In this document: positions 4,500 through 29,782 of the stretch, in pieces
How positions within the stretch are numbered: position 1 is the stretch's first letter
Layout of the letters: each line of letters starts with the position of its first letter
Assembly (NCBI GenBank): GCA_903904515.1
Contig: CAIVCR010000040.1
Coordinates: forward strand, 1-64,000
Direction: 5' to 3'
Origin: an uncultured Bacteroidia bacterium
GTDB lineage: Bacteria > Bacteroidota > Bacteroidia > Bacteroidales > Prolixibacteraceae
Length of the DNA: 64,000 bases
Notes under the pieces: generated by a model
What the model was told of the DNA's origin: nothing
The model's input: only the letters and a program-made list of their open reading frames with translations
Databases searched by the model: none
Program-made: the position numbers and the translations under genes

Positions 4500-4526
4500 A
4501 CCTGTATTGATTAAAAATGATATAAG

Positions 4527-6305: not shown

Positions 6306-6386
6306 TTTTGTTCAAAGTTTCAAGCATTGTTAACCGGTTTGTGATTTGTGACGTACTTATTACTTACTTTCCTTGATAGATTTAAG

Positions 6387-6414: not shown

Positions 6415-6456
6415 TTCTAAACAAATTCTTCTGATCCAATAATTCATGCCCAAAAA

Positions 6457-8115: not shown

Positions 8116-8149
8116 GCATTTGTGCGTAAATTTTTTATAACGAAAAACT

Positions 8150-9523
8150 ATGAGAAATTATATCCCTTATTTTATTCTGGCAGGCTTATTGGTTTTTTGT
8201 AGTTGGTATCCTTTTCCTGAGAATGACGCGATTAAGTCTACAAAAGAACAGAATGGAAAAATCATTTCTGATGATTCATTACTGACATTGATTCAATATA
8301 AAACCTTCCAATATTTTTGGGATGGAGCAGAACCAACCTCGGGTCTTGCCTGCGAAAGAATTAACCTGGATGGCATTTACCCGCAGAACGACAAATCAGT
8401 GGTTACAACAGGTGGCTCGGGATTTGGGATCATGGCCATCTTAACAGGAATCGAAAGGAAATTTATCACGCGGGAAGAGGGATATCAGCGCATGCGCCAT
8501 ATCGTAAATTACCTTGCAAAAGCCGACCGTTTTCATGGCGCATGGCCCCATTGGCTTTATGGCGAAACGGGAATAGTAAAGCCTTTCGGCAGAAAGGATA
8601 ATGGCGGCGATATTGTTGAAACAGCATACCTTATGCAGGGATTATTAACCGCGCGTCAATATTTCACAAACGGAACCAATGCAGAGAAGATTCTAAGTTC
8701 AGACATCGATAAACTCTGGCGAGGTGTTGAGTGGAACTGGTTTACAAGGGGGCAGGATGTCCTATACTGGCATTGGTCTCCCGAATATTTATGGGAAATG
8801 AACTTCCCGATCGGGGGTTATAACGAATGTCTGATCGCATATATCCTTGCTGTTTCGTCCCCCACAAACGGAGCTGATCCGGCAATTTATCATAAAGGAT
8901 GGGCACGAAATGGGGGAATTAAGGGTAAACACAAGAAATTTGGTTATACGCTCAATCTCAATCACAACGGGGCGGAGAAATCTGGCGGACCACTTTTCTG
9001 GGCGCATTACTCCTTCCTGGGTCTGGATCCCCATGGGTTGAAAGACCGGTATGCCAACTATTGGGAAGAGAACAAAAATCAGACATTGATCAACAGGGAA
9101 TGGTGTGTTCAAAATCCGAAAAAATTTACCGGCTACAGCGAGAAATGCTGGGGCCTGACTGCCAGTTACTCAGTTAACGGGTATGCAGCCCATGCGCCCG
9201 ATTTAGATAATGATTTGGGAGTGATCTCTCCCACAGCTGCCCTCTCATCCTTACCCTATACGCCGAAATACTCCATGGAGGCCATCAAATATTTCTATAC
9301 CGATTTAGGGGGTAAGATCTGGGGAAAGTACGGCTTTTACGATGCCTTTTCACTCCAAAAAAACTGGTATCCAGGCCAATATCTGGCTATAGATCAGGGC
9401 CCGATAGTTGTGATGATCGAGAATTACCGCAGTGCTCTGCTTTGGAAACTCTTTATGAGCTGTCCCGAAATTCAGAACGGTCTGAAAAAACTCGATTTTC
9501 AATCCCCCTGGATCACAAAATAA
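8150..9523 (+). CDS. GH144-type endo-beta-1,2-glucanase, single-domain exported form
   Basis: Second GH144 protein of the locus, 457 aa, essentially only the catalytic (alpha/alpha)6 domain after a short hydrophobic export signal (possible lipobox LVFC, otherwise a plain signal peptide). The acidic candidates are D150 and D154 (DNGGD) and E226 (GYNE), spacing 76, the same as I recall for the Chitinophaga enzyme. The conserved blocks WHWSP, CWGLTAS, SSLPYTP and MIENYRSALLW are present. Compared with its neighbours it lacks the N-terminal accessory domain, and it has a longer insertion before the VVTTGGSGFG block. It may act in the periplasm on imported oligosaccharides, or on shorter chains; that split of labour is inference. 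Confidence 0.87.
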   Translation: MRNYIPYFILAGLLVFCSWYPFPENDAIKSTKEQNGKIISDDSLLTLIQYKTFQYFWDGAEPTSGLACERINLDGIYPQNDKSVVTTGGSGFGIMAILTGIERKFITREEGYQRMRHIVNYLAKADRFHGAWPHWLYGETGIVKPFGRKDNGGDIVETAYLMQGLLTARQYFTNGTNAEKILSSDIDKLWRGVEWNWFTRGQDVLYWHWSPEYLWEMNFPIGGYNECLIAYILAVSSPTNGADPAIYHKGWARNGGIKGKHKKFGYTLNLNHNGAEKSGGPLFWAHYSFLGLDPHGLKDRYANYWEENKNQTLINREWCVQNPKKFTGYSEKCWGLTASYSVNGYAAHAPDLDNDLGVISPTAALSSLPYTPKYSMEAIKYFYTDLGGKIWGKYGFYDAFSLQKNWYPGQYLAIDQGPIVVMIENYRSALLWKLFMSCPEIQNGLKKLDFQSPWITK

Positions 9524-9547
9524 TTTAAGATATAAGATTTAATACTG

Positions 9548-13488: not shown

Positions 13489-13572
13489 TAACTTTTTAAA
13501 TAAAGGGAACTCTAATCCAATCCTGATTGGAAATAAGGATCAAGAAATTTGAACTTCTAAAGCGTCAAAAAA

Positions 13573-16022: not shown

Positions 16023-16820
16023 CTATCTTTCAGATCCTTCAATGAGTTTAAGTTCTGATTTATTATTTGTCAAAACAGAATGATTAAAGTATGCGTTATT
16101 TGGAAGTTGCAGGTTGTAGTTGTGGATAAAGGCCACCGAAACTTCACCGCTTAAAATGGAGCAGTTCAGCAGGTGACCACCCTTCGTTTTATCTTTTGAA
16201 AGAAAATGAAAATGGTAATCATCCATATTGACCTCTTTGAGATATTTGGGGAATTTAAATCCTAAGAGTACCCCTTCCTGATTGGTGAATGTGAAAACAC
16301 CCTGTTTTTTATACGCTTCTATCAGCCGTTTATAAGGCTTCTCCTGCTTCGGCACACTTCGGATAACTAACGTATCAAACTTACCGGAAATCTGGTATCC
16401 GTAAATCAGGTTGGGCCTTGCAAGGACGCTATCCAGATAGTTTTCAAGCGCTTTTATTTTTATGGGGTGGTTAATCCGGATCAGGGTATCGGCACTGAAG
16501 TTGCAAATCGCAGCAAATGGTGTCCTGACCGAGTCGTTCATCGGGAGAATCTTTGAATCGGATGCCGCTTTAAAACACTGCCCTTCAAACAGGATTAGTT
16601 CACCGTCAAGGGCATTAAAGGTTCCGATACCAAAAGTTCCTTGTTTCTTCAGTTCTCCGACAGTCAGTTCTCCGTCATAAACCCCTTCGAGCAATGCACT
16701 TAAAGTGGAATATTGGAAGATTGAATTTGGTTTCCGAATCGCTGCGGAATTCTTAGGGCTAAATCCAGAAAGAGATAACATTGTGCCAATGATCAGAAAA
16801 ATAATAAACAGAGTTTTCAA
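16023..16820 (-). CDS. Acetolactate decarboxylase, exported form
   Basis: Converts 2-acetolactate to acetoin and CO2 (EC 4.1.1.5 family). The three zinc-ligand histidines are H203, H205 and H216 (YHFHFLSKDKTKGGHLL), with spacing 2 and 11 identical to the Brevibacillus enzyme (H194, H196, H207, from memory). The N-terminal family block (QYSTLSALLEGVYDGE, GTFNALDGELI) is intact. The start is a TTG at 16820, chosen because it gives a clear signal peptide (MKTLFIIFLIIGTMLSLSGF); upstream in-frame codons offer no ATG. No acetolactate synthase is nearby. The export signal is notable because the substrate is normally made in the cytoplasm. Family confidence is high; the physiological role is open. 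Confidence 0.9.
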   Translation of the reverse strand: MKTLFIIFLIIGTMLSLSGFSPKNSAAIRKPNSIFQYSTLSALLEGVYDGELTVGELKKQGTFGIGTFNALDGELILFEGQCFKAASDSKILPMNDSVRTPFAAICNFSADTLIRINHPIKIKALENYLDSVLARPNLIYGYQISGKFDTLVIRSVPKQEKPYKRLIEAYKKQGVFTFTNQEGVLLGFKFPKYLKEVNMDDYHFHFLSKDKTKGGHLLNCSILSGEVSVAFIHNYNLQLPNNAYFNHSVLTNNKSELKLIEGSER

Positions 16821-17142: not shown

Positions 17143-17844
17143 TTAAAAGTTAATACTCAGCCCGTTTTGCATGATTAGATTCCAGGCCTGGACAAAAGTC
17201 GCTTCATCGAGAATTTGGATGCCGTTTTTGCGCAACAATCTTTTTACAATTTTCTGACTGGGTTTGTCAAATTTGGAGAGGAGGGAGCTTCTGCTCATTT
17301 TAAGCGAGGTATAACCTTTCCCTGCAGACCAGGCATAAAAATGGTAAGCCGGCATGTATGCCAATCCAAACTTACTATAGGAGGTGTCGCAAGTCTCCAG
17401 GTCAACTTTACGATAAGCCAGCAGGGATATATTACCATCACTGAGCACTTCGAAGAAACGTTCTTCCTGCAAATAGGTGTCAAAATTCTGACGGCGAAAA
17501 CTCCTTTTAGTTCCGAGCTCATCGGGATATGAAAATCCTTTAAGACTGATTTTGTCAATGACAATCTGAGTCTTAATATCTGTATTATAGTAAATTAACT
17601 CATCCTGAAACGAGCTGTAACGGATTCCAAGATTCCCAATTTTTGTGCCGTCCAAAAGCTCAATCTCTCCCAGAACGAACTTTTCATTGAAGTATGGCGT
17701 ACCTGAATAGGGCGGGTAAGGGATAAACCGGGTCCCCTTGATTTTGTCTGGTTTCCAGTCTTTCTGCAGCTTCTCCTGCGCGAAAAGCGCTGATACTGCA
17801 AGCAATCCGAAAATGGTTATCAGAAATAGGATTCTTTTGGCCAT
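17143..17844 (-). CDS. Unrecognised exported protein, cassette copy 2, gene 4
   Basis: I do not recognise this family. The 233 aa start with a signal peptide (hydrophobic core, cleavage near LFAQ). The mature part has a conserved N-terminal half shared with the paralogue at 23447-24160: IKGT, IPYPPYSGTPY, EKFVLGEIELLDGTKI, RYSSFQDELIYY, IDKISLKGF. The C-terminal half ends in a basic, helical segment (KFDKPSQKIVKRLLRKNGI). The repeated small hydrophilic/aromatic strands suggest a beta-rich periplasmic or surface protein. It starts one base after the stop of the 537-aa gene, so both are translated together. Role unknown; linkage to the receptor cassette is the only clue. Confidence 0.75.
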   Translation of the reverse strand: MAKRILFLITIFGLLAVSALFAQEKLQKDWKPDKIKGTRFIPYPPYSGTPYFNEKFVLGEIELLDGTKIGNLGIRYSSFQDELIYYNTDIKTQIVIDKISLKGFSYPDELGTKRSFRRQNFDTYLQEERFFEVLSDGNISLLAYRKVDLETCDTSYSKFGLAYMPAYHFYAWSAGKGYTSLKMSRSSLLSKFDKPSQKIVKRLLRKNGIQILDEATFVQAWNLIMQNGLSINF

Positions 17845-17845
17845 A

Positions 17846-19459
17846 TTAATTTACCTCAAATAAATGTTCTTTATAGAAAATAGATCCATCCTTATCCGCT
17901 CCGCAAATCACAAGTTTGTAATTACCAACCAGGTCTGATGTTCCAAAATTAAACTTAATCGTTTGCCCTGGTTTTACAGAAGGATTCCAAAGCAGAACTT
18001 TCCGCAGGTCAGGTTCATTTAACGGGTGTTCAGACAGAGTGGTTAAGGTTACATCGGGCTGAATACAATCAAAATTAAGCTTAACAACTTCGTCAGAAAC
18101 CAAAACCCGCGAGTAATCGGCCTTTTTTGTATGGATGGCTAACACCCCAGGAAATTTGAGATTACCGTAATACCGTTCATTCATTGAGATCTCAATCTTT
18201 GCAATTTCTTTCGATCCCAGATCCTTGATGACACTCAAATCGCGGACAGGAATACCATCAATCAGCAATAGGGGTGAATCGTTAAAATAGGTACGTTGGG
18301 CGCTGTTGAAGATCTGCAGTGAGGGAATACGGTTATAGGCCCTGTATTTGACTCCGGTCAACAGTTCGCGTGAAATTTCGGTAAAATCGGGAAGATTTAT
18401 AAACAGTTGGGGATCAACTACAATGTTTGGAACTCCAAAAAACGGATAGCGGTCTGTCCCGGGTTTCATCGCTGGTTGGACTGCCACTTCGGGTTGGTTA
18501 AATATTTTCCGGAAGGTAACAGCATCTTTACTCTCCTCTGCACTTGTGCGAAATGCAGGCGAAATCTCCCAACTTTCGAAATCCGGAAGACAATTTTTAA
18601 GACTATCGCGACGATTGACTGAAATTTTGAGAAGATGTTTATCCTCATTGTCGAACCCCTGAACAACCACGGGTATTTTGCCATAGTAATTGTCAAGCTG
18701 AAAATTAAAATAGCCGTCATCACCGGTAATGTAAAAGTCGAATCTTGGAATGGAGTCCGGAATGGAAAGATAGACAACTCCGTTTTTAAAGGGAATCCCT
18801 GTTTTAAGATCTTTTAAATATCCGTCAAGGACAACCCCCTCTTTCTCTGCAGATTTAAAATTGTCGCGATGGATAGTACTTTGAAAAGATTGGGAATTGT
18901 ATCCCGGAGTGACCTCTGAGACGCTAACAAAAAGATTGCCTTCAATTTGGGCGACTATATCCTTGGGTAGATTAAGAGATACTTCTAATTTTTCCCTTGC
19001 TTTGACGCTTTTATCCAGACCTTCGATTTGCAGATCATCAATTAATCTGTTTTTAAGGGGTTTAATTTTCGATGCCCGTACAGGAGTTCCTACCTCAGGA
19101 ATTCCTGTAAACCGGTTAGTGATATATAACTCCTTGAATGTTAATGAAGAATTGATTTTGGTTGAAGTACAGAGGAGATAGCTGCCTGAACTCAATGAAT
19201 CAGGAATATAGATATATCCATCAGCCTGATGACCGGTAATTTTCTTACTAATTCCCGAAATTATCCGCCCTTTGGTGTTTAACAGATCAATATTCACTAT
19301 TCCTGATGGTTCATCTGCCGGCACGTAAACCTTGATCAACATCGTCTCACCACTGGCATAGAGATCCCGATCAGTAAACAGACTGAAATGGTTCTTCTCC
19401 TGGGACTTACCTGTAATGGCGACAAAGAGTATTAACAATATAATTAGTTTTCTTTTCAC
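17846..19459 (-). CDS. Exported macroglobulin-like/plug-like protein, cassette copy 2, gene 3
   Basis: Exported 537-aa protein with a signal peptide ending near GKSQE and a GTG start (no better start is seen; the paralogue also uses GTG). Residues of about 22-110 resemble the MG2 domain of bacterial alpha-2-macroglobulins (FTDRDLYASGETMLIKVYVP, LSSGSYLL). The middle contains a beta-sandwich with ITGDDGYFNFQL. Residues of about 360-440 resemble a TonB-receptor plug (LLLIDGIPVRDLSVIKDLGS, KIEISM, GVLAIHTKK), but no barrel follows. The C-terminus is another beta domain (VLLWNPSVKPGQ). It may be a soluble or surface partner that interacts with the cassette's TonB receptor; this is inference. Confidence 0.8.
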   Translation of the reverse strand: MKRKLIILLILFVAITGKSQEKNHFSLFTDRDLYASGETMLIKVYVPADEPSGIVNIDLLNTKGRIISGISKKITGHQADGYIYIPDSLSSGSYLLCTSTKINSSLTFKELYITNRFTGIPEVGTPVRASKIKPLKNRLIDDLQIEGLDKSVKAREKLEVSLNLPKDIVAQIEGNLFVSVSEVTPGYNSQSFQSTIHRDNFKSAEKEGVVLDGYLKDLKTGIPFKNGVVYLSIPDSIPRFDFYITGDDGYFNFQLDNYYGKIPVVVQGFDNEDKHLLKISVNRRDSLKNCLPDFESWEISPAFRTSAEESKDAVTFRKIFNQPEVAVQPAMKPGTDRYPFFGVPNIVVDPQLFINLPDFTEISRELLTGVKYRAYNRIPSLQIFNSAQRTYFNDSPLLLIDGIPVRDLSVIKDLGSKEIAKIEISMNERYYGNLKFPGVLAIHTKKADYSRVLVSDEVVKLNFDCIQPDVTLTTLSEHPLNEPDLRKVLLWNPSVKPGQTIKFNFGTSDLVGNYKLVICGADKDGSIFYKEHLFEVN

Positions 19460-19537
19460 GTTAAAATCTCTGTATGTAATTAACTGAATGAATGATGTTT
19501 ATTTATAAGATTAACGATTTCTGAATATTTGCCTTAC

Positions 19538-20611
19538 TTATTCTTCCCACCAATCGGGCCGTACAATTGGATTTTTCTTAACAGCTCTGACAATTCCATT
19601 GTCAGGGATATCCGGATACCTGTAAATTTGTTTTAATGTGATCGCCGTTGTTGGGCTGAACAGGTTAAAATAGTACCTGTACTGTTGACAGGAGTTCAGA
19701 TCGAAGAACCCATAAACGATCTTTGAGGGATCATTTTTACACAGGACATTTCCGTAGACCTGAGTCGTGACCGGATCAAACAGGCTGCCCGTAGCTGCGA
19801 ACTGACTATTTAGTTTTTGGTGGTATTCATAAGACTCTTTGGAGGTGCCGAATTGCTCTATGATTAATATCCATCCCTGCGAAACCAGTGTGTCGGCATA
19901 GAGATAATCCTTTGCATTGTAGGAGATCATTAACAGCGGATGTTTTTCAATTTTATTTACCTGATTAAAATCGGTGGGTCCTGCCAGATTAAACTGTTGA
20001 TTTTCATAGTAGGAATACCATCCAAATGCAGTGTGAGTTATCGAATATACCGAAGGAATTGAATCCCATGTCCATTCCAATACTGACCTCACGTCAAACC
20101 GGTAGTGGGAAAGTGAATCTGTGAGCGCTAAATCGACATTAATTTCTCTCCCTTGTTTTTCGAATGATTGCGGAATGCCATCGCCGTTGTTTATCCATAC
20201 CTTTTTTATGGTGTCTAAGGTATAAAAACTAGCCAGGGTAGGAATCGGAGGCATTGTAACAGCCAGTGATTCATAGATATCGACACCAATTGTGATGCGC
20301 AGATAATACCTCTTGCCTGTAACCGGAACAGATGGAAACGAATAATAGCCGGTATTTCGCTCGACTGCCTGGACCGACTTACCACCCATTTGGATCAGCT
20401 CAACTTTTGCTCCGGAAACTTCGGGGAGGGGGACCATATCATAGAAACTACGCGTTCGGGTCAGATGAACAAAGTTTTTGGCAGGATCGTTTGTAATTTG
20501 TGCATCAACCACAAGTTGTCCCTCCACCCGGTCAATGGAAGGGTGGTAAATCTGTTCGCATGAGACGAAGAGAATCAGCAGAAATACCAAAGAGTAAAGT
20601 TCTTTTTGCAT
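19538..20611 (-). CDS. DUF4249 lipoprotein, cassette copy 2, gene 2
   Basis: Lipoprotein with lipobox FVSC, 357 aa, of the DUF4249 type that accompanies TonB receptors in Bacteroidota. Family features are the N-terminal block after the lipobox (VEGQLVVDAQITND, VHLTRTRSFYD), an Ig-like strand pattern with YLRITIGVDIYES and PPIPT, and a C-terminal half rich in aromatic residues with VYGNVLCKNDPSKIVYGFFD. Its ATG overlaps the receptor stop by one base (TGATG), so translation is coupled. By position it may play the SusD-like capping role, but it is unrelated to SusD by sequence. The ligand is unknown. Confidence 0.87.
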   Translation of the reverse strand: MQKELYSLVFLLILFVSCEQIYHPSIDRVEGQLVVDAQITNDPAKNFVHLTRTRSFYDMVPLPEVSGAKVELIQMGGKSVQAVERNTGYYSFPSVPVTGKRYYLRITIGVDIYESLAVTMPPIPTLASFYTLDTIKKVWINNGDGIPQSFEKQGREINVDLALTDSLSHYRFDVRSVLEWTWDSIPSVYSITHTAFGWYSYYENQQFNLAGPTDFNQVNKIEKHPLLMISYNAKDYLYADTLVSQGWILIIEQFGTSKESYEYHQKLNSQFAATGSLFDPVTTQVYGNVLCKNDPSKIVYGFFDLNSCQQYRYYFNLFSPTTAITLKQIYRYPDIPDNGIVRAVKKNPIVRPDWWEE

Positions 20612-23343
20612 CAGAATTTAAAATTATAGGTAATCGATGGAACAGGAACACCGATAATTGACATCATATAGATTTCATAACTGCTTTGACCTGAATCCTG
20701 GACCATGGATCCTTTGCGGTAGAAGACTGAGTAGGGATTTTTACGACCATACAGGTTGTAGACCGAGAAGGTCCAACTCCCTTTCCACATCCGCTTCCTG
20801 CGAAGGTTTTCATCGAGTGTGATACTGACATCTGCCCTGCTGTAGGCAGGCATCCGGTATTTATTTCTGTCCGAAAATACAACGACCTGGTAGGCTCCTG
20901 AGGTATATTTTTGTTCAGGCAAGGTGATGGGACGACCCGATGAGAAGACAAAATTTCCTGAAAAGCGCCATCTCCGGCTGATTTTATAATTCATTACAGC
21001 CGAAAAATCGATTGGTTTATCATAGACTGAAGGGTACCAGGCCCCCCCGTTGATTTTTTCTTCAGGATTCGGGCCGTCTGTTTTTTGAAATGCGCGCGAA
21101 AAGGTGTAGCTGATCCATCCGTTTAACCGCCCTGTATTCTTTTTAGCAAATAATTCAAGGCCATAAGCATATCCCTGCGACTGCAAGAGTGCTGTTTCAA
21201 TGTGTTTATTCATCACCAGTTGCGCTCCATTTTTGTAATCCATCAGATTTTGTAATTGCTTGTAATAGATCTCAACAGAGGTTTCATATTTTCCATTTGC
21301 AGGATTTTTGAAGAACCCCAGAGCAATCTGGTCGTTAATCAGCGGCGCTAGATTTTGATCAGCTGACTTCCAGTAATCGGCTGGTGTAATTACCGTTGTA
21401 TTCGAAATCTGACTTACATACTGGTGGATTCGCTGATAATTTATCCTGAAAGAACCGCCGTTTTCGAGATTGTATTTAAATGCGAGACGGGGTTCAAGGC
21501 CATGGTAAGATTTTATATTGGCCCCCGAATTATAGCTGGTTGAATCAGTTAGTGTGCTGAGACTTTTTGGTGCCCCCGGGGCATAATTGAAGACCATTCC
21601 CGGTCCATAATTCATAAAATAGGAGTAACGTATACCGATATTAAAGGCCAGTTTATCGGTCAGGTTAAAATCATCGTCTGCAAAAAGGGCCATTTCGGCA
21701 GATTGCTCCGGTCTCATTGTCGATTTAACCACATTGGAGGTGGTCCAGGTGGGAGTGATCTTTCCCGGATTGATCCGGTACCCAATGGCTTGAAATCCTG
21801 CACTGATCCGGTGTTTGTCATTTGGATACAACGACAGGGCATATTTTAGACTGCCATATTGGATGTCAGACTGTAGTGTGTAGTCGTTGGCTTTGAGAAC
21901 AGGATCTTTCTGGTCCATCTTTAAATCGTATTTTGAATAGGCAAGGCCTAAGTTGGATACTAATTTATCGGTGAGGTTCAGTTTCCAGTTCAAAGAGCCC
22001 AGTGTATTGGCGTAGGTGTATAATGAACTTGAATTGAGATTAAAAACATCACCACTTATATACCCCATCATCTTAAGGTGGTTTTTGGGAGAGATCTCAA
22101 GGTTAACAGTTCCGTTGAGGTCATAAAAGTGGGCCACACTGTTCATCAGTGTCGCATTCTTTGTCTGCCGGAGAAGCCAGTCCGAATAGGTACTCCGGCC
22201 TCCAATTAAGAAGGTGCTTTTTTTCTTTTTAACAAATGGACCTTCAATGGTGAGGCGGCTATTTATGAGGCCAATTCCGCCGTTTATCCGAAGATTCTTG
22301 TCACTGCCATCCTTGAGCTGCACATCGAGAACCGAGGAGATCCGTTCGCCGTAGGAAGCTGGAATTCCCCCTTTAAAAAGTGTAACATCGTCGATTGCAT
22401 CAGGATTGACCATTGAAAGAAATCCAAAGAGATGTGTCGTATTAAAAACCGGAGCGCCATTCAATAATACAAGATTCTGATCGGTATTTCCACCCCTGAC
22501 ATTAAAGCCGGATGACATCTCGCCCACACTTTGCACTCCTGGCAGCATTACAATACTTTTGATCAAATCAGCTTCACCCATCAATACCGGGAATTCCTTA
22601 ATCTCGATTGCTGACATTTTTGCCATACTCATCTGGGCCTTCGAAGCCTTGGCATTTTCGCTTGTTATTGTAACTTCTTCAATTTCGTGTGTCTCCTCAA
22701 ATAATTCAAAATCGGCATTCCCATCCTGAATGAGCTGTATCTTTGCCAGCTGATTTTCAAAGCTCAGATAAGATACCTTTAAATGGATGTTACCTGTCGG
22801 CATTTCAATGGAATATCTCCCTTTTGAATCGGTGGCAACACCTGTTTTGGTTTCGGGATTGTAAATCACTGCCCCGGCAAGCGGCTCTCCTGTCTTGCCC
22901 TCAAGTACCCTGCCGCGAAGTCTGGCCCGTTGATAACGCCCCAAATTCAGAGGGTCTCCAATTACAAGAACCTGTGAATCATGAATATCTATCCCTGAAC
23001 CATGCAGGTCGGCATTTGCCGGATAGACCATGACGGCATTCGCCTGAAAAAATTTGAAAGTCAGATCCTTTCCTGTAAATGTTTGATTCAGTGCCTGGAT
23101 AAGCGGCAAATTATTAAAAGTGGCAGTAACCTCTTTGGATTTTACCCACTCCTCCTTATAGAAGAATCGGATACCATAATTTTTTTCCAGTTTACTGAAG
23201 AACTCCTGAAGCGGAACCTGATTGAAAGCCCCGTTAATTTTCATCTCTTTAATCTGTTGCGATCGGCCACTCTGAGTCGAGAGTAGAATCGTAACAAACA
23301 GAAAAACAGCTTGATATAAATACTTAATTTGAAAATACTTCAC
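20611..23343 (-). CDS. TonB-dependent receptor with N-terminal STN domain, cassette copy 2, gene 1
   Basis: Outer-membrane TonB-dependent receptor, 910 aa, with a GTG start at 23343. After the signal peptide an STN domain spans about 33-105 (LQEFFSKLEKNYGIRFFYKE, IQALNQTFTGKDLTF). Next is a carboxypeptidase-regulatory-like domain at about 145-220 (LRGRVLEGKTGEPLAGAVIY), then a plug with GFNVRGGNTDQNLVLLNGAPV and a barrel ending in SITYNFKF. STN domains usually talk to FecR-type anti-sigma factors, yet none is encoded in view. It is closely similar to the receptor at 26893-29622 throughout. Ligand unknown; the DUF4249 and macroglobulin-like neighbours are not diagnostic of sugar, metal or peptide. 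Confidence 0.93.
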   Translation of the reverse strand: MKYFQIKYLYQAVFLFVTILLSTQSGRSQQIKEMKINGAFNQVPLQEFFSKLEKNYGIRFFYKEEWVKSKEVTATFNNLPLIQALNQTFTGKDLTFKFFQANAVMVYPANADLHGSGIDIHDSQVLVIGDPLNLGRYQRARLRGRVLEGKTGEPLAGAVIYNPETKTGVATDSKGRYSIEMPTGNIHLKVSYLSFENQLAKIQLIQDGNADFELFEETHEIEEVTITSENAKASKAQMSMAKMSAIEIKEFPVLMGEADLIKSIVMLPGVQSVGEMSSGFNVRGGNTDQNLVLLNGAPVFNTTHLFGFLSMVNPDAIDDVTLFKGGIPASYGERISSVLDVQLKDGSDKNLRINGGIGLINSRLTIEGPFVKKKKSTFLIGGRSTYSDWLLRQTKNATLMNSVAHFYDLNGTVNLEISPKNHLKMMGYISGDVFNLNSSSLYTYANTLGSLNWKLNLTDKLVSNLGLAYSKYDLKMDQKDPVLKANDYTLQSDIQYGSLKYALSLYPNDKHRISAGFQAIGYRINPGKITPTWTTSNVVKSTMRPEQSAEMALFADDDFNLTDKLAFNIGIRYSYFMNYGPGMVFNYAPGAPKSLSTLTDSTSYNSGANIKSYHGLEPRLAFKYNLENGGSFRINYQRIHQYVSQISNTTVITPADYWKSADQNLAPLINDQIALGFFKNPANGKYETSVEIYYKQLQNLMDYKNGAQLVMNKHIETALLQSQGYAYGLELFAKKNTGRLNGWISYTFSRAFQKTDGPNPEEKINGGAWYPSVYDKPIDFSAVMNYKISRRWRFSGNFVFSSGRPITLPEQKYTSGAYQVVVFSDRNKYRMPAYSRADVSITLDENLRRKRMWKGSWTFSVYNLYGRKNPYSVFYRKGSMVQDSGQSSYEIYMMSIIGVPVPSITYNFKF

Positions 23344-23402
23344 AATTGATCGTCGTCTTGAGGATGAGAAAAATAAGAAATTGCAGTAGCGTAAAATTAA
23401 AA

Positions 23403-23425
23403 AATATTTATTTTAATTAAATATT
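23403..23425 (-). terminator. AT-only hairpin between the two cassette copies
   Basis: AATATTTA (23403-23410) and TAAATATT (23418-23425) form an 8-bp stem with a 7-base loop; on the minus strand it is followed by a T-rich run. It lies between the last gene of copy 1 and the receptor of copy 2. Weak because the stem has no G-C pair. Confidence 0.3.
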
Positions 23426-23446
23426 ATGAATGATAAGTTCGCGTGT

Positions 23447-24160
23447 TCAAAAATTTGTAGGGATCCTGTTAATCTGAATCAGCTTCCAGGCTTCTATAAG
23501 GCCGGACTCATCCCTGATCGCAATTTTATTGTTCCGAAGTAACTTTTTCACCAGTTTCTGATTGGATTTGTCGAATTTCGACAACAATGAATTTTTCCCA
23601 ATTCTGATTGTTTCATATCCCTTTTTACTGTTGTATAAATAGTAATTGAAATTCTGCTGGTACTCCATGTTTTTGAGTACACCTGCCTCATTATTATATA
23701 CGGAGCAATATTGCAAAACAACAGTGCGATAGGCCAGAAGAGCAATGTCACCATCATTCAATACCTCAAAAAAGCGGTTCCCCGGAAGGAATCCATTGTA
23801 ATATTGGTTACGGAATATCCGGTTAGCACCCTCCTTTGTAAACAGTTTAAACCCTTTAAGGCTTATCTTGTCGATGATAATCTGAGCAGAAATTGCAGAA
23901 TTGAAGTAGATTATTTCATCCCGATAGGTACTGTATCGTAAAAAGAGGTTTTCAATTTTCGTCCCGTCAGTAAATTCAATCTCTCCGGATACAAATTTCT
24001 CAGTTAAATAAGGATTTCCGGTATAGGAAGGATAAGGAATCAGCTGGGAACCTTTTATTTTTTCACTATCCCAATTTTTAGGTACTGCTTCCTGGGCTGT
24101 GAGCGAGGTGGCTGCCAGTAAAGCAAAAAGTGTGATGATATAGAAAGTGTTGTTCGCCAT
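23447..24160 (-). CDS. Unrecognised exported protein, cassette copy 1, gene 4
   Basis: Paralogue of the protein at 17143-17844; 237 aa with a signal peptide cleaved near LTAQE. The shared mature-protein blocks are IKGS, LIPYPSYTGNPY, EKFVSGEIEFTDGTKI, RYSTYRDEIIYF and IDKISLKGF; the C-terminal half keeps the LLSKFDKSNQKLVKKLLRNN helix but otherwise differs. No enzyme motif, cysteine pattern or membrane helix is seen beyond the signal. It follows the 537-aa gene by one base, exactly as in the other copy. Family and role unknown. Confidence 0.75.
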   Translation of the reverse strand: MANNTFYIITLFALLAATSLTAQEAVPKNWDSEKIKGSQLIPYPSYTGNPYLTEKFVSGEIEFTDGTKIENLFLRYSTYRDEIIYFNSAISAQIIIDKISLKGFKLFTKEGANRIFRNQYYNGFLPGNRFFEVLNDGDIALLAYRTVVLQYCSVYNNEAGVLKNMEYQQNFNYYLYNSKKGYETIRIGKNSLLSKFDKSNQKLVKKLLRNNKIAIRDESGLIEAWKLIQINRIPTNF

Positions 24161-24161
24161 A

Positions 24162-25775
24162 TTAGTTTACTTCAAAAGATTGTTCCTTAAAAAAGAGAGA
24201 GCCATCTTTGGTTTTGCCCCGCAAAACCAGCTTGTAGACACCCTTAATGTCAGAAGCCCGAAAATTTAGTGTAATTGTCTGTGCCGGTTTAAGTGACGGG
24301 GTCCAAAGCAATACCTGCCGGAGATCGGGTTCTGAAGGCAACTGCTCTGAAGGGGAATTTAAGACTGTCTGGGCTTGAATTGCCTCAATGGTGAGCTTGA
24401 TCAGATCCTTAGATTCGGGTACAAGGGAATCGTCTGCCTTAGGCGAGAAGATAGCCACGACACCAGCAAAAGAGAGATCACCAAAATGCCTTTCCTCCAG
24501 ACAAATCTCAACTTTGTCGATCTTTTTTGAACCCAGATTTTTGATGATGTTAAGATCCTGTATTGGAATACCATCAAGCAAAACCAACGGGGGCTCGTTA
24601 AAATAGTTATGCAGCGAAGCGCTCAGAACCTCTATAGTAGGTATCCGGTTGTAAGTTCTGAATTTGACGCCGGGCAATAACTCGTGCGATATTTCGTTAA
24701 AGTCGGGGAGATCAATAAACAGTTTTGGGTCGACTGTATTTGTCGGGATACCATAAAACGGATAGGCATCAGCCTGGGGTTTAGGAGCTGGCAATGTTAT
24801 AATCTCCTGCTGATTGAATATTTTGCGAATGGTTACTGCTTCGATATTTTTTGCAACCTCCTTTCTTGCTTCCGTGGGGAAAGTGCTGGTTTCGAAAGCT
24901 GGAAATCCACTTCGCAGACTTTCAGAATCGACAAGGGAAATCTTCAGAAGCCGGGTTCTTGCTTTATCGTAACATTGGAGAACAACAGGAATTTTCCCGT
25001 AGTATTTCTTTAACTTGAAAAAGAAGCGGCCGTCGTCACCTGTTATGTAATAGTTGAAACCCGGAGTGGTGCCGGGAATGGAGAGCATCACCACTGAATT
25101 TTTAAAAGGGGCGGCTGTTTTCAGATCTGTCACAACCCCTTCAAGGATGATACCGTCTTTTTCAATAAGTTGATCAGTAGTGGGTTTAGCACTTATGCAA
25201 AATGTGCCGCCGTTATATCCGGGAGCTGTTTTTGAGACACTAACATGCACGTTACCTTCCGTTTTGGCGAGCAAATCATCTGCTAAATGAATTGAAGCAG
25301 TAACTTTTTCCCTCCTCTTATAATGCTCTTCAAGCCCAGTAATCGGGGAATTACCCATTTCCGTTTCTGCAACCGGAGTTGCTCTGCCAATCCGTGACAC
25401 TGAATTTGATTCAGGCATACCTGCGAACCTGTTTGCAACATATATTTCCCTAACTGTTTGTAGCTTGTCTGACCTTGTGGAGGTACGCAGGATATAACTT
25501 CCAGAACTTAAAGAGTCTGGCAGATAAACGGCCCCATTGGCCTGATGATCAGTTATTTCCAGGATTATTCCTGTTATTGTTTTACCTCCGCAACTGATCA
25601 GGTCAATATGGACAATTCCGGCTTGATCATTTAAAGGGGCAAATAGCTTGAGCAGAAGAGTCTCGCCGCTTACATACAGATCACGATCGGTATACAAGCC
25701 GAAGTTCTCCTTCTGCTGGGCATTGCCAAGTAGTGATATGAAGAGCAACAGGACTATAAAAAATTTTGTTTTCAC
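24162..25775 (-). CDS. Exported macroglobulin-like/plug-like protein, cassette copy 1, gene 3
   Basis: Paralogue of the protein at 17846-19459, with the same length (537 aa), GTG start and domain order. The signal peptide ends near GNAQQ. It has an MG2-like domain (YTDRDLYVSGETLLLKLF, SLSSGSYILRTSTRS), a central beta domain (YYITGDDGRFFFKLKKYYG), a plug-like segment (LVLLDGIPIQDLNIIKNLGS, KVEICL, GVVAIFSPKAD) and a C-terminal beta domain (VLLWTPSLKPAQ). The plug-like segment contains the LLDGIP turn seen in receptor plugs, but there is no barrel and no TonB box. Divergence from the copy-2 protein is greatest in the central region, as expected for a ligand- or partner-facing part. Function unknown. 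Confidence 0.8.
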   Translation of the reverse strand: MKTKFFIVLLLFISLLGNAQQKENFGLYTDRDLYVSGETLLLKLFAPLNDQAGIVHIDLISCGGKTITGIILEITDHQANGAVYLPDSLSSGSYILRTSTRSDKLQTVREIYVANRFAGMPESNSVSRIGRATPVAETEMGNSPITGLEEHYKRREKVTASIHLADDLLAKTEGNVHVSVSKTAPGYNGGTFCISAKPTTDQLIEKDGIILEGVVTDLKTAAPFKNSVVMLSIPGTTPGFNYYITGDDGRFFFKLKKYYGKIPVVLQCYDKARTRLLKISLVDSESLRSGFPAFETSTFPTEARKEVAKNIEAVTIRKIFNQQEIITLPAPKPQADAYPFYGIPTNTVDPKLFIDLPDFNEISHELLPGVKFRTYNRIPTIEVLSASLHNYFNEPPLVLLDGIPIQDLNIIKNLGSKKIDKVEICLEERHFGDLSFAGVVAIFSPKADDSLVPESKDLIKLTIEAIQAQTVLNSPSEQLPSEPDLRQVLLWTPSLKPAQTITLNFRASDIKGVYKLVLRGKTKDGSLFFKEQSFEVN

Positions 25776-25840
25776 GTTAGATTCATTTTTAAATAATTGG
25801 AATACATACAGATACTAGTCTGTATATGCACTTCAACCAG

Positions 25841-26893
25841 TTATTCCCACCAATCCGGGGGGTGTCCTGTAATTTGTCCTTCATCGGAAATATAGGGAAA
25901 GCGCGTTATTTCCCGGATGATGATATTCCCGTCGGGGCTTGGATTTGTAAAGTATAAATAATAACGGTGTTGCCGGTAGGAATTCAAATCGAAATATCCG
26001 TAAACAATTTTTGCTGGATCTGTTTTGCACGTAATATTTCCATAAACCTGAGTCTGTATCGGATCAAAAAGATTTCCGTTGGCAGAAAACTGGGCGTTCA
26101 GCTTTTCATGAAAATCATAGGATCCTTGTGATGTGCCATATTGATCAAGGATATAAATCCATCCTGAAAACGTTGAATCGGGTAAAATCAATATTGCAGT
26201 ACTGTATGGAAGTGTGTTAAGCGGATGTTTTTCGATGATATCGGTCTGGCTGAACTTCTTAGGCCCTGCAATATTGTAGTTGTCAAAATAGTGAATTGCA
26301 AGCCATCCGTAAACCGTTGGGGGGGGCGGACCCATGGCTGGTGGGGTGTAATACCATTCCAAAATACTTCTCATCCTGAACCTGTAATTTGCAAGTGCAG
26401 GTTTTGCCGAAAGATCAACGTAAAGTTCCCTGCTGATCACTGTGGAAGGGACAGGAACGCCATATCCATCAGTTTGATATTCGGTTTTTTCAATGCGATC
26501 AGCACGGAAATTGGTAATCGTCGGGATAGGTGGCATCGTCACCGATTCCGATTCATAAACATCATTATTGTATTCAATATGCAGGATATAGGTCTGTCCT
26601 TCAGTGGGTATCATCTCAAAATGGAAATTGCCCGAACTACTCTCTGTACCCATGACAACGGTTCCCGTAGCATCAATTAATTTTACGCTGGCACCCGTAA
26701 CAGCCTCATTGGGACTGTTGCTGTAAAATCCTGTTGTCCTGGTAAGCTGGACATAATTCTGCGAGGGATCATTGGTTATCAGTGCCTCAACAATCAAATG
26801 ACTTTCAACAGTGTCAATTTTCGGATGATAAGCATCTTCACACGAGGCGAAGCCGAATAACAATAACGAACCATATATAAGATCTTTAAACAT
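25841..26893 (-). CDS. DUF4249 lipoprotein, cassette copy 1, gene 2
   Basis: Lipoprotein (lipobox FASC) of the DUF4249 type, 350 aa. It shares with the copy-2 protein the N-terminal block (VESHLIVEALITND, VQLTRTTGFY), the PPIPT turn, IIEKHPL, the GTSQGSYDFHEKLNAQF block and the C-terminal VYGNITCKTDPAKIVYGYFD and PPDWWE end. A proline-rich stretch in the middle (PPAMGPPPPTV) is not found in the paralogue. The start overlaps the receptor stop by one base. It is probably on the outer leaflet of the outer membrane next to the receptor; the ligand is unknown. Confidence 0.87.
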   Translation of the reverse strand: MFKDLIYGSLLLFGFASCEDAYHPKIDTVESHLIVEALITNDPSQNYVQLTRTTGFYSNSPNEAVTGASVKLIDATGTVVMGTESSSGNFHFEMIPTEGQTYILHIEYNNDVYESESVTMPPIPTITNFRADRIEKTEYQTDGYGVPVPSTVISRELYVDLSAKPALANYRFRMRSILEWYYTPPAMGPPPPTVYGWLAIHYFDNYNIAGPKKFSQTDIIEKHPLNTLPYSTAILILPDSTFSGWIYILDQYGTSQGSYDFHEKLNAQFSANGNLFDPIQTQVYGNITCKTDPAKIVYGYFDLNSYRQHRYYLYFTNPSPDGNIIIREITRFPYISDEGQITGHPPDWWE

Positions 26894-29622
26894 CAGAATT
26901 TAAAGTTATAGGTAATTGATGGGACCGGAACTCCAATGATTGATAGTTTATAGATCGCATACTGCGTTTTATCGGTACTTTGAATAGATGGTTCCTTGCG
27001 GTAGAAGACCGAGTAGGGGTTCTTGTGCCCGTAGAAGTTATAGATTGAGAACGTCCAGCTCCCTTTCCACATTCTCTTTTTTCGCAGATTTTCATCCAGT
27101 GTTATGGCCAGATCCATACGGTGATAGGGGGGCATTCTGTATTTATTTCTATCAGAATAGACAACTACCTCCTGCCCTCCGTAGTTGTACTTCTCCTCAG
27201 GCAAGGTGATTGGTCTGCCGGAAGAGAAGACAAAGTTTCCAGAGAATCTCCAGCGCCGGCTGATTTTATAATTCATCACAACCGACAGATCGTGGGGTTT
27301 GTCGTATATCGATGGATAATAACGTCCTCCATTAATTTTTTCGTCCGGAAACACGCTGTCGTCTTTTCTAAAAGTTCTTGAATAAGTATAGCTTGCCCAT
27401 CCGTTCAACCGTCCAGCACTCTTTTTGGCGAGTAGTTCGATACCATATGAGTATCCGTTCGCGTTTAGCAGATCTGTTTCGATATGCCTGTTCATCAGCA
27501 GTTGCGCCCCGTTTTTGTATTCCGTAAGGTTTTGCAATTTCTTGTAGTATACTTCAACAGAGGTCTCAAACATACTGGTGCTGCGGCTTTTAAAATATCC
27601 AACAGCAATTTGGTCATTGATTAGTGGTGCCAGGTAGGGATCGGACGATTTCCAGTAATCAGCCGGAGATATTACTGCCGTATTCGAAATCTGGCTCACA
27701 AACTGGTGTATCCGCTGATAGCTTAACCGCAGCGATCCGCCGTTAGGCAGATTGTATTTTACAGCCAAACGGGGTTCGAGACCACGATAAGCTTTAATAA
27801 TATCTCCTGACTTATACAGCGTAGAATCAATGATGGATCGTTCGCTTTTCATAATTCCGGGTGCATATTTGTAAACTGTTCCGGGGCCGTAATCGAAATA
27901 CTGGGTGTAACGTAAACCAAGATCAAAGGCCAGTTTCTCGGAAAGGTCGAAATTGTCATCTGCAAACAGGGCGAGCTCGGCCGATTGCTCGTGCCGCATG
28001 GACGTTTCAACGATGTTTGAAATCGTCCGTGTTGGAGCAACATTCCCCGGATTGATCCAGTAACCGATAGTCTGAAAACCTGTGCTGATACGGTGTTTGT
28101 CATTTGGATAAAGGGAGAGGGCGTATTTAAGACTCCCATATTGGATATTTGATTTCAAGGTATAGTCATCCTGAGGGAGAACAGGATCTTTTTGATCCAC
28201 TTTTAAATCGTATTTGGAGTAAGCAAGCGATAAATTGGAAACGAGTTTTTCGGAGAGATTCAATTTCCAATTCAGTGAGCCAAGAGAATTGGAATAGTTG
28301 TAAAGGGAACTTGTGTTAAGATTGAAGAGATCAGAACTCAGGTATCCCATTAATTTTACATGATTTCTGGGGCTAATTTCAATATTGGCAGTGCCGTTCA
28401 CATCATAAAAACGGGCAACACTATTCATGAATGTTGGATTTTTAGTCTGATACAGCATCCAATCCGAATAGGTACTTCGTCCACCGAGCATAAAGGTGCT
28501 TTTTTTCTTTTTTGCAAACGGCCCTTCAATGGTGAGACGACTGTTAATAAGACCTAATCCTCCATTGATTCGTAACGATTTATCACTTCCATCTTTTAAC
28601 TGAACATCCATCACTGAAGCTATCCGTTCGCCATAAGATGAGGGTATTCCACCTTTGTAAAGCGTCACATCTTCAACAGCATCCGGATTGATCATTGAAA
28701 AGAAACCAAACATATGGGTGGTATTGAAAACCGGGGCTCCATTGAGTAAAACCAGGTTCTGATCGGTGTTGCCTCCCCTCACGTTAAATCCGGACGACAT
28801 CTCCCCTACACTTTGGACTCCCGGCATCATTGTCATACTCTTAATCAGATCCGCCTCACCCATTAGGACCGGCAACTCTTTAAGGACGACCGAGGTCATC
28901 TTAATCATGCTCATCTGTGCTTTGGAAGCCTTTGAATTTTCGCTGACTACAGTGACTTCTGAGATGGCGTGGGTCTCCTCGAACAGGTCAAAATTTGCAT
29001 TTCCATCCTGAATCAACCGTATTTTTTGGTACTGCTTTTCGAAACTGAGAAATGATACCTGCAGGTGTGACTCACCGGTTGGCATTTCTATGGAATACCG
29101 GCCGTTTCGGTCTGTTGCCACCCCGACTTTGGTTTCGGGATTGTAAACTACTGCCCCTGAGAGTGGCTCCCCGGTTTTTCCTTCAAGAACCTTTCCGCTG
29201 ATTTTGGCCCGCTGATACCGACCCTGGTTTAGCGGATCACCGATTACGAGTACCTGCGAATCATCGTGGCCAGATTCTGAACGTACCTCGGCACTTCCGG
29301 GATATATAACCACCGAATTATCCTGAAAAAACTTAAGGTTTAATTCTTTGCCGGTAAACGTCTGATTCAGTGCCTGAACCAGTGGTGTGTTTTTGAAGGT
29401 GCCGGTTACCCGGACAGATTTAATCCACTCCTCTTTATAAAAAAAGGTGATCCCGTAGCTCTTCTCCAATGAACCGAAGAACTCCGTTATAGGAACATCT
29501 GTAAAACTCCCAGAAATCTTTAACTCCTGGATCGTTTGGGATTCGACCTGCTGAACCAGGAGGAGAAGTGTTATGATCAGAAAAATAGCTTTAAGCAAAT
29601 GCTTAATTTGATGATACTTCAC
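26893..29622 (-). CDS. TonB-dependent receptor with N-terminal STN domain, cassette copy 1, gene 1
   Basis: First gene of the duplicated region, 909 aa, GTG start at 29622 like its paralogue. Domains in order: signal peptide, STN (ITEFFGSLEKSYGITFFYKE; LVQALNQTFTGKELNLKF), carboxypeptidase-regulatory-like domain (ISGKVLEGKTGEPLSGAVVY), plug (GFNVRGGNTDQNLVLLNGAPV) and 22-strand-type barrel ending in SITYNFKF. Identity with the 20611-23343 receptor is high over the whole length; differences cluster in barrel loops. No sigma or anti-sigma gene lies between here and dgt upstream. About 160 bases separate it from dgt, and I could not find a convincing promoter there. Confidence 0.93.
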   Translation of the reverse strand: MKYHQIKHLLKAIFLIITLLLLVQQVESQTIQELKISGSFTDVPITEFFGSLEKSYGITFFYKEEWIKSVRVTGTFKNTPLVQALNQTFTGKELNLKFFQDNSVVIYPGSAEVRSESGHDDSQVLVIGDPLNQGRYQRAKISGKVLEGKTGEPLSGAVVYNPETKVGVATDRNGRYSIEMPTGESHLQVSFLSFEKQYQKIRLIQDGNANFDLFEETHAISEVTVVSENSKASKAQMSMIKMTSVVLKELPVLMGEADLIKSMTMMPGVQSVGEMSSGFNVRGGNTDQNLVLLNGAPVFNTTHMFGFFSMINPDAVEDVTLYKGGIPSSYGERIASVMDVQLKDGSDKSLRINGGLGLINSRLTIEGPFAKKKKSTFMLGGRSTYSDWMLYQTKNPTFMNSVARFYDVNGTANIEISPRNHVKLMGYLSSDLFNLNTSSLYNYSNSLGSLNWKLNLSEKLVSNLSLAYSKYDLKVDQKDPVLPQDDYTLKSNIQYGSLKYALSLYPNDKHRISTGFQTIGYWINPGNVAPTRTISNIVETSMRHEQSAELALFADDNFDLSEKLAFDLGLRYTQYFDYGPGTVYKYAPGIMKSERSIIDSTLYKSGDIIKAYRGLEPRLAVKYNLPNGGSLRLSYQRIHQFVSQISNTAVISPADYWKSSDPYLAPLINDQIAVGYFKSRSTSMFETSVEVYYKKLQNLTEYKNGAQLLMNRHIETDLLNANGYSYGIELLAKKSAGRLNGWASYTYSRTFRKDDSVFPDEKINGGRYYPSIYDKPHDLSVVMNYKISRRWRFSGNFVFSSGRPITLPEEKYNYGGQEVVVYSDRNKYRMPPYHRMDLAITLDENLRKKRMWKGSWTFSIYNFYGHKNPYSVFYRKEPSIQSTDKTQYAIYKLSIIGVPVPSITYNFKF

Positions 29623-29782
29623 AAGTTGTTGATGCCTGGAGAATGAAAAAATGAAGAAATATTGATAGGCGAAATTAAAACATATAATTTAATAAGATGT
29701 TGAATAAGATCAACAATAACCAATTTGGCTCAATTTTTAATGAGTCCCGATAAACGGTAGAAGCAATCTGGTTAGCGAATAG

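Follow-up and report, generated by a model that had tools for sequence, protein, structure and literature searches.

The whole 64,000-nucleotide stretch of DNA analysed here (the window) carries two consecutive copies of a four-gene cassette in which a TonB-dependent receptor and a DUF4249 lipoprotein are accompanied by two further exported proteins: MG, a 537-aa macroglobulin/plug protein, and S235, a protein of about 235 aa. This raises the question of whether the four genes constitute one system and, if so, what the two additional proteins contribute to it.

Two complete cassettes in the window

All eight ORFs of cassette copies A and B were located on the minus strand between positions 17143 and 29622, with the order receptor, DUF4249 lipoprotein, MG and S235 in both copies. 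The cassettes comprise the following features:

29670..29677 (-), TAATTTCG, promoter-like element, 55 nt upstream of the start of receptor A, differing from TANNTTTR at one letter
26893..29622 (-), copy A receptor, TonB-dependent, 909 aa, GTG start; STN/FecR_C-like, CarbopepD_reg_2, plug and barrel domains
29233..29547 (-), receptor A, STN-like domain, aa 26-130 (limits drawn by eye); its occurrence coincides with that of an MG gene
25841..26893 (-), copy A DUF4249 lipoprotein, 350 aa, putative surface lid; PF14054, E 6e-28
24162..25775 (-), copy A MG/plug protein, 537 aa, GTG start, N-terminus resembling a signal peptide (by eye), no lipobox
24921..25160 (-), MG A, CPD (carboxypeptidase-regulatory-like) domain, aa 206-285; matches the CPD of the receptor by hhalign (96.6%, E 5.3e-10)
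24441..24761 (-), MG A, plug-like domain, aa 339-445; matches the plug of the receptor by hhalign (65.5%, E 5.9e-5)
23447..24160 (-), copy A S235, exported protein, 237 aa, no known family
23392..23399 (-), TAATTTTA, promoter-like element, 56 nt upstream of the start of receptor B
20611..23343 (-), copy B receptor, 910 aa, GTG start; 73% identical to A
19538..20611 (-), copy B DUF4249 lipoprotein, 357 aa; PF14054, E 3.1e-25; 47% identical to A
17846..19459 (-), copy B MG/plug protein, 537 aa, GTG start; 50% identical to A
17143..17844 (-), copy B S235, 233 aa; 50% identical to A

The junctions are nearly identical, and the preliminary description of this DNA, two complete copies with the same order, overlaps and GTG starts, is confirmed. 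Start codons, which were assigned mechanically, are GTG for the receptor and MG and ATG for DUF4249 and S235 in A and B alike. In each copy the receptor and DUF4249 genes overlap by 1 nt and the MG and S235 genes lie 1 nt apart, while the DUF4249-to-MG spacing is 65 nt in A and 78 nt in B. The spacer between the two copies measures 103 nt. The TANNTTTR pattern stands at the same distance in relatives, and the presence of TAATTTTA before receptor B suggests that transcription of copy B may start separately. Acetolactate decarboxylase and HD phosphohydrolase genes flank the cassettes; among the flanking genes examined, no FecR, sigma or anti-sigma gene was found directly beside them.

The four-gene set recurs in the Bacteroidota

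The set is a conserved predicted operon, widespread in Bacteroidota. We collected 112 distinct receptor–DUF4249–MG cassettes, 98 of them with S235. Among 67 MG genes (the window's two and those in 60 regions picked by hand, mostly stronger matches), 63 were surrounded by all three other families; three of the remaining four (L102, L114 and L119) are truncated where their contigs stop, and the fourth (L120) is a solo gene. DUF4249 was directly upstream of MG in 65/67 cases, a receptor preceded it in 64 of those 65, and S235 adjoined the cassette in 64/67. That the four proteins form one system had been proposed earlier, with a lack of co-occurrence elsewhere named as the finding that would refute it, and the outcome favors the proposal. 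A tandem duplication does account for the presence of two copies in the window; however, the idea that these genes are neighbors merely by chance or local duplication is refuted by the co-occurrence counts, the set recurring across many Bacteroidota with altered gene order and altered neighbors, and we regard it as extremely improbable.

S235 is not an invariable member. Of 49 MG cassettes found through their receptors (in the best 80 of at least 588 relatives), 38 have S235, eight lack it and three are cut by contig ends. Two loci, L122 and L127, have three DUF4249 genes each, with S235 as the fifth gene.

The neighborhood offered little further guidance. No cluster of neighboring genes occurred in more than 8/61 loci. 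The glycan locus at 41-15864, with a GH3 gene at its end, was considered as a pointer to the ligand and rejected: it lies on the opposite strand, and homologues of the GH3 gene are near the cassette in 6/61 loci. Copy A proteins, tried in sets of three and of four, matched no phage or defence families.

MG adjoins STN-bearing receptors

The receptor-first sample consisted of the best 80 of at least 588 related loci and held 92 receptor ORFs, of which five were incomplete and excluded, leaving 87; SusC-like receptors matching both the receptor and the MG profiles were kept out of these counts. Within these best 80 of at least 588 loci, STN was present in 52/87 receptors (MG adjoining in 49, absent in one, contig-cut in two), absent in 34 (three contig-cut, and MG beside none of the 31 evaluable) and ambiguous in one; 28 of the 31 evaluable STN-less receptors had a DUF4249 gene and three did not. 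The DUF4249-first sample comprised 40 hand-picked regions, mostly one per genus and two from the window's own genome, and was scored with an STN model built from the receptors under study themselves. It yielded eight STN receptors, seven with MG beside them, and 26 STN-less receptors, none with MG on the same strand; in the other six regions no adjacent receptor was recognised. L190 and L238 carry STN without MG, and L251 has an MG-like gene on the opposite strand, two genes off the lid of an STN-less receptor.

MG therefore appears to go with one receptor class, that bearing STN, a new association that rests on few evolutionary switches. The best tree has four switches for STN and five for MG, of which well-supported branches force one and two, respectively, and a single independent STN/MG pair falls on such branches.

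The receptor and its lipoprotein

Both window receptors scored above the Pfam cut-offs for barrel (PF00593), plug (PF07715), CarbopepD_reg_2 and FecR_C. The STN score of receptor B (28.4 bits) is at the cut-off, and that of receptor A (16.7) is below the 28.4 required; in receptor A, FecR_C is above cut-off on a stretch overlapping STN, and the protein aligns over its whole length with receptor B and other family members. A lipobox pattern was present in 21/24 DUF4249 family members, as compared with 0/53 for MG and 1/60 for S235. No convincing match of DUF4249 to any solved structure was found.

The receptor–DUF4249 half of the cassette corresponds to what has been described as a transporter–lid pair. 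In Bacteroides, according to excerpts of PMC11003636, BT2172/BT2173 are a receptor and DUF4249 partner in a conserved operon, and both genes have similar mutant effects. DUF4249 is predicted to act at the cell surface as a lid, shutting the barrel once ligand is on it; the lid role is taken from the title of a 2023 preprint on TonB-transporter lids cited in those excerpts. Compared with BT2172/BT2173 as a pair, and by its description in the excerpts only, the window cassette shares the adjoining receptor and DUF4249 genes and differs in its STN receptor, MG and S235. The earlier statement that no named system has this composition consequently needs to be divided: the pair is in print (PMC11003636, as excerpted), while for the four-gene set no name was found in the literature searched. 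The iron-induced receptor operon PG1019-PG1022 of P. gingivalis was considered as a member and set aside, as it is listed with DUF4876, not DUF4249, in an excerpt of PMC10434189.

Two other receptor types invite comparison. The SusCD/RagAB glycan and peptide importers share a CPD, plug and barrel receptor with a lipoprotein lid, as well as the lid-and-barrel working idea; the cassette, however, has no SusD-family protein, and the window receptors reach 74.8 and 69.3 bits with the SusC signature TIGR04056, under its cut-off of 368.25. FecA-type receptors, which work with FecR/FecI, likewise carry STN at the N-terminus, but the window cassettes have no adjoining FecR or sigma gene and their constant partner is MG.

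Domain architecture of MG and S235

MG combines predicted macroglobulin-type domains with a CPD, a plug-like part and a further domain at its C-terminus, and has neither barrel nor lipobox; profile, fold and CPD/plug matches all bear out its original designation as macroglobulin-like and plug-like. Pfam gave only a weak MG2 match, below cut-off, for the window proteins (E 0.065 and 0.027), while an MG2-type domain was detected at E<=0.01 in 26/53 MG members and the MG profile matched the MG2 region of C3 (E 2.9e-5). The best PDB folds for the predicted structure (pLDDT 89.5) were alpha-2-macroglobulin and complement, with Salmonella A2M as the top Foldseek match. When MG was compared by hhalign with all but the last receptor segment (aa 721-909), the CPD and plug matched and the other three tested segments did not; MG thus repeats the receptor's CPD-then-plug order without the barrel. 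The plug-like domain of MG A also matched SusC homologues in PDB (E 0.0055), and among the six MG segments compared it shows the highest conservation (mean majority frequency 0.55 vs 0.47 for the MG2-like part).

No thioester-domain family was among the Pfam families matched by the 53 MG members at E<=0.01. In comparison with bacterial alpha-2-macroglobulins, MG has MG2-type matches, below cut-off in the window copies, and macroglobulin fold matches, but it is 537 aa long, the Salmonella structures it matched being about 1500 aa, no thioester domain was found, and it includes both a CPD and a plug-like domain of the TonB type. A type 9 C-terminal sorting domain was found in neither MG nor S235 of the window, and a single weak match (E 0.008) among the 53 MG members. 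Signal peptides were judged by eye, and no membrane segments were seen by eye in MG or S235. MG-family proteins also occur without receptors: the solo gene L120, in the window's own genome, encodes 851 aa. A relation of MG to the Bacteroidota BAM canopy proteins was considered and dropped, the terms “macroglobulin” and “DUF” being absent from the main text of PMC12611786.

For S235, Pfam returned no family for copy A and a single below-cut-off match for copy B, sequence comparison with PDB nothing better than E 0.11, and a fold search nothing at E<=0.001. The surroundings of homologues outside cassettes (20 regions, genes named by eye) include ECF sigma/FecR/SusCD-like genes, a cation-transporter-like gene and a peptidase-like gene, and are so varied that genome context yields no single functional answer.

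Divergence of copies A and B

A and B are an old tandem duplication. Identity was computed per gene pair (73% for the receptors; 47%, 50% and 50% for DUF4249, MG and S235), and this difference had been read as a sign that the copies handle different ligands. That argument fails, because the gap is general and that between A and B ordinary. Across cross-locus cassette pairs, accessory identity was below receptor identity in 6206/6207 for DUF4249, 6207/6207 for MG and 4746/4746 for S235; among 62 pairs of similar receptor identity, 13%, 23% and 29%, respectively, were as low as A/B. It is possible that A and B handle different ligands, on the grounds of their old, separately kept accessory sets.

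Recent gene conversion between the window receptors was sought and rejected: no tract was apparent, third positions being 0.34-0.75 identical per 50 codons, and the longest exact match between the two genes is 21 nt. The receptors of a sister lineage appear to have been homogenised, and lid, MG and S235 retain their A/B types; the clades used to test this were chosen after quick trees, so the p-values do not come from a prior hypothesis. Within the lineage of G008/G001, the STN segment of the receptor departs from the A/B types (p-AU 0.0011) and MG follows them, so an STN–MG contact there would not be type-specific.

Proposed function and alternatives

We consider it probable that each copy is a DUF4249-lidded TonB-dependent importer with a predicted periplasmic module of MG/plug protein and S235. 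The barrel, with its STN, CPD and plug, would import ligand across the outer membrane, the lipoprotein closing over that ligand at the cell surface. MG and S235 would act as soluble periplasmic partners at the receptor's STN/CPD/plug face, a placement proposed because MG accompanies STN receptors and was not found beside STN-less, DUF4249-lidded ones. MG would most likely dock at this periplasmic face, with its plug-like domain as the conserved core, and gate, receive or report the imported ligand. Each copy has its own promoter-like element, and lid, MG and S235 would travel together as type A or B; receptors could be homogenised between copies while accessory types persist.

A bolder version, which we think unlikely, is that MG is a “plug in trans”, i.e., a soluble periplasmic protein with the receptor's CPD-plug order and no barrel, working from below on STN receptors. 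If true, MG would seal the pore or hand on the ligand while the receptor's own plug is displaced, and the TonB-dependent transport cycle would then involve two plugs, one of which sits on a macroglobulin arm. It also seems unlikely that MG, perhaps together with S235, pairs with STN in place of an anti-sigma factor and reports ligand to gene control rather than serving transport. STN elsewhere has an established role in signaling to an anti-sigma factor (PMC7782687, in excerpt), STN and MG go together, the window cassettes are not flanked by sigma/anti-sigma genes, and in 6/61 clustered loci the second or third gene upstream is ECF sigma-like (family checked for one, L085). These ECF-bearing cassettes are a minority, however, and neither MG nor S235 has, by eye, a membrane segment that could carry a signal through the inner membrane.

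Rather unlikely, in our judgment, is a role in biogenesis, with MG and S235 as chaperones that assemble the STN receptor or deliver the lid and have no part in transport. Both are soluble exported proteins, one with receptor-like domains, and one SusC requires its CPD-type N-terminal domain for function, for reasons that may lie in biogenesis (PMC7782687, in excerpt). Yet STN-less receptors with a DUF4249 partner manage without an adjacent MG, and the retention of A/B types by lid, MG and S235 under receptor exchange would be odd for a receptor chaperone. The MG2-type matches (26/53 members at E<=0.01) and macroglobulin folds would suit a small alpha-2-macroglobulin relative that guards the complex or traps proteases, its plug-like part a mere anchor; the lack of any detected thioester-domain family and the better conservation of the plug-like part argue against this, and we hold it to be improbable.

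Implications

Many Bacteroidota TonB-dependent transporters carry extra periplasmic domains whose jobs are unexplained. The importer cassette proposed here ties one of these, STN, to a constant soluble partner that contains a plug-like domain and seems not to have been studied, and it places two unnamed protein families (the short MG/plug form and S235) in a system. The STN-less relatives, with a DUF4249 lid and no adjacent MG, are a ready natural comparison, and the cassette enables a direct test of the role of STN where no anti-sigma gene adjoins.

Organization of the two cassettes

Copies A and B each encode a TonB receptor, a DUF4249 lipoprotein, a 537-residue macroglobulin/plug protein (MG) and an exported protein of about 235 residues (S235). 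These and other features of the window are:

17143-29622 (-), cassette copies A and B
16023-16820 (-), acetolactate decarboxylase gene with a TTG start, immediately downstream of copy B
41-15864 (+), glycan-use locus with SusC-like and SusD proteins, a LamG protein, GH43, GH3 and three consecutive "putative glucoamylase" PF10091 proteins
46435-46824 (+), 129-residue ORF with no Pfam match at E<=0.001

The positions, order and start codons that the preliminary description gave for two complete copies were all found in the ORF table: both read receptor, DUF4249, MG, S235, and start codons agree gene by gene. Its claim of identical overlaps held to the base at the receptor/DUF4249 and MG/S235 junctions but not between DUF4249 and MG, where the gaps are 65 and 78 nt. 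Between copies, identity was 664/908 residues for the receptor, 163/347 for DUF4249, 267/537 for MG and 117/233 for S235. Pfam confirmed the receptor and DUF4249 families for the window proteins and scored MG weakly against MG2; S235 matched no Pfam family above cut-off, and no NCBIfam cut-off was exceeded by any of the eight cassette proteins.

Of 16 receptors, both of the window's among them, 12 have a TANNTTTR element, presumably resembling the Bacteroidota promoter -7 box, 35-80 nt before the start, and in 11 of these it lies at 53-56 nt; single-letter shuffles, 500 in all, averaged 2.0 and never exceeded 8. Copy B has the element and copy A a one-letter variant in the same place. A promoter-like element before each copy suggests that A and B may be two operons. 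A general sigma-70 scan performed no better than shuffles.

Co-occurrence of the four genes

Co-occurrence was approached from three ends: MG, the receptor and DUF4249. Across 149 genomes (the window's own and relatives), MG was found in 71 and S235 in 78. Sixty regions were fetched from the MG list, and their ORFs were classed by profiles grown from the window proteins. With the window's two genes counted in, DUF4249 lies immediately upstream, on the same strand, of 65 of 67 MG genes, the exceptions being one at a contig end (L114) and a solo 851-residue member (L120). A receptor precedes DUF4249 in 64 of those 65 loci (the exception, L119, is cut), and S235 adjoins the cassette for 64 of the 67 MG genes (not in L120, nor at the contig ends L102 and L114).

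For the receptor-based sample, loci were ranked by receptor likeness and nothing else, and the top 80 of at least 588 were taken; of their 92 receptor ORFs, 87 are complete. S235 was present in 38 of this sample's 49 MG cassettes; three were cut by contig ends and eight lacked it (L136, L138, L140, L150, L155, L156, L162 and L187). Of 148 genomes taken from the phylum, 97 encode the DUF4249 family, and 40 hand-chosen regions formed the DUF4249-based sample. Altogether, we counted 112 distinct receptor-DUF4249-MG cassettes, 98 with S235. The two principal layouts have S235 last, in the window and in Draconibacterium, or first, in Flavobacterium, Aequorivita and Tannerella-type bins; in L140 and L185 MG stands ahead of DUF4249. 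The four genes had been proposed to form one system; given this wide co-occurrence, they are a real system, widespread in Bacteroidota.

Several loci showed further features. Thirteen of the 112 cassettes carry two or three DUF4249 genes, consecutive in, for example, L062, L063, L074, L076, L118, L122 and L127, as if there were several lids per receptor. The L070 (G081:C5) receptor is encoded by two ORFs, of 667 and 202 residues, instead of one, and the L035 (G007) S235 match contains one stop, each reflecting decay or assembly error. Directly upstream of the cassette lies an ECF-sigma-like gene in 6 of 61 loci and an outer-membrane-barrel-like gene in 7 of 61 (L083, L084 and L085 are examples of both; families were checked for L085). 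Five loci (L137, L138, L150, L156 and L190) have a SusC-like gene followed by one or two ORFs immediately ahead of the STN receptor, the first of these ORFs being SusD-sized (judged on size alone). An acetolactate decarboxylase-like gene (likeness by eye) was seen one or two genes downstream in 4 of 61 clustered loci.

Association of MG with STN receptors

DUF4249-paired receptors are of two kinds. When an STN domain is present at the N-terminus, the operon includes MG; when it is absent, there is no MG. Among the best 80 of at least 588 relatives, MG accompanied 49 of 50 evaluable STN receptors (all but L190; two more were cut by contig ends) and 0 of 31 evaluable STN-less receptors (three more were cut), 28 of which have a DUF4249 neighbour; one receptor (L200) was ambiguous. 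In the 40 DUF4249-based regions, MG was found with 7 of 8 STN receptors (all but L238) and, on the same strand, in 0 of 26 STN-less regions; in STN-less L251, an MG-like gene lies on the opposite strand, two genes beyond the lid. The receptor profile recognised no adjacent receptor in 6 of the 40. The window's own genome also has an STN-less receptor-DUF4249 pair without MG (L248).

A tree of 80 receptors, with the STN part left out, gave at least four STN changes and five MG changes; well-supported branches force one and two, respectively, and one independent pair remains. Judged from these sequences, the STN-MG link is close yet phylogenetically thin. In L182, a record titled Bifidobacterium breve, the receptor falls within Flavobacteriaceae, and the bin is probably mislabelled or contaminated.

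Properties of MG and S235

In the PDB, the MG profile (53 members) picked out SusC homologues at E 0.0055 and, at E 2.9e-5, the MG2 region of complement C3. At E<=0.01, Pfam assigned MG2 to 26 of the 53 members, CPD (CarboxypepD_reg) to 13 and Plug to three. The predicted MG model is of good quality (pLDDT 89.5) and had Salmonella alpha-2-macroglobulin and complement proteins as its top PDB matches. Whole-chain TM-scores were low (0.23 for the Salmonella protein), which we attribute to a chain that would consist of jointed domains. When MG was compared piecewise with five receptor segments, residues 206-285 matched the CPD (96.6%, E 5.3e-10) and residues 339-445 the plug (65.5%, E 5.9e-5), the plug-like part being the best conserved stretch of MG; all remaining segment pairings reached at most 8%, and the best MG-DUF4249 pairing 14%. 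MG thus repeats the receptor's CPD-plug order, with the barrel absent.

A lipobox-like pattern was present in 21 of 24 DUF4249 proteins, 0 of 53 MG, 1 of 60 S235 and 0 of 24 receptors, consistent with DUF4249 as a putative surface lid on the barrel and with soluble MG and S235, both probably located in the periplasm.

The MG/plug family extends beyond the cassette, to a solo protein and to longer members. The solo protein of the window's own genome (L120:6530-9082, G000:C95) combines MG2 with a Plug domain above the Pfam cut-off; no receptor lies near its gene, which has those of thymidylate synthase and dihydrofolate reductase as neighbours. Longer MG-type proteins occur elsewhere in the class (profile matches in 41 of 149 genomes at E<=1e-10).

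S235 was modelled confidently (pLDDT 93.9), and its fold matched nothing in the PDB at E<=0.001. Distant homologues sit in other settings (20 regions). With neighbours named by eye, these adjoin a cation-transporter-like gene in L205 and L207-L211 and are divergent from an ECF sigma/FecR/SusC-like locus in L201, L204 and L206.

History of the copies

In trees of all four genes, copy A grouped with the first copies of genomes G014 and G013 and copy B with their second copies, weakly for B in S235 and moderately for A in MG; the duplication therefore predates these species.

The gene trees conflict in the G008/G001 lineage. For clades picked after quick trees had been viewed, a single-clade grouping was rejected for DUF4249 (p-AU 3.4e-5), MG (2.9e-5) and S235 (6.3e-4); the A/B grouping was supported at 100/99 or better by DUF4249 and MG and not rejected by S235 (p-AU 0.38). 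The four receptors, in contrast, form one clade (100/100) and reject A/B (p-AU 2.6e-4). Within the receptor, rejection came from STN (0.0011), CPD (0.024) and the first barrel part (0.0015), and not from the plug (0.27) or second barrel part (0.084); the best tree of the C-terminal part is A/B (support 91), with the rival grouping unrejected too (0.089). We read this as receptor genes that would have been homogenised over a large part of their length, and accessory genes that stayed distinct. L066, whose receptor falls on one side of the A/B trees and DUF4249/MG on the other, suggests a mosaic cassette.

That receptors stay alike while accessory proteins diverge had been taken as a hint that A and B may handle different ligands. 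The gap proved general: accessory identity was below receptor identity in 17159 of 17160 accessory comparisons, and cassette pairs with 70-75% identical receptors averaged 52% for DUF4249, 53% for MG and 54% for S235.

Relation to known systems

The open-access literature searched contained nothing on a macroglobulin together with TonB receptors in Bacteroidetes, and no published name for the four-gene set. PMC7782687 gives signalling as the role of STN in receptors and describes a CPD domain as needed in a SusC, leaving the reason unexplained. The closest likeness is to BT2172 (receptor) and BT2173 (DUF4249), which, according to PMC11003636, form a conserved operon and have similar mutant effects; that paper cites a 2023 preprint on TonB-transporter lids. 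The cassette shares this receptor-DUF4249 operon but adds the STN-linked MG/plug protein and S235. It would represent DUF4249-lid TonB-dependent transport, newly varied by an STN-linked MG/plug and S235 module of putative function.
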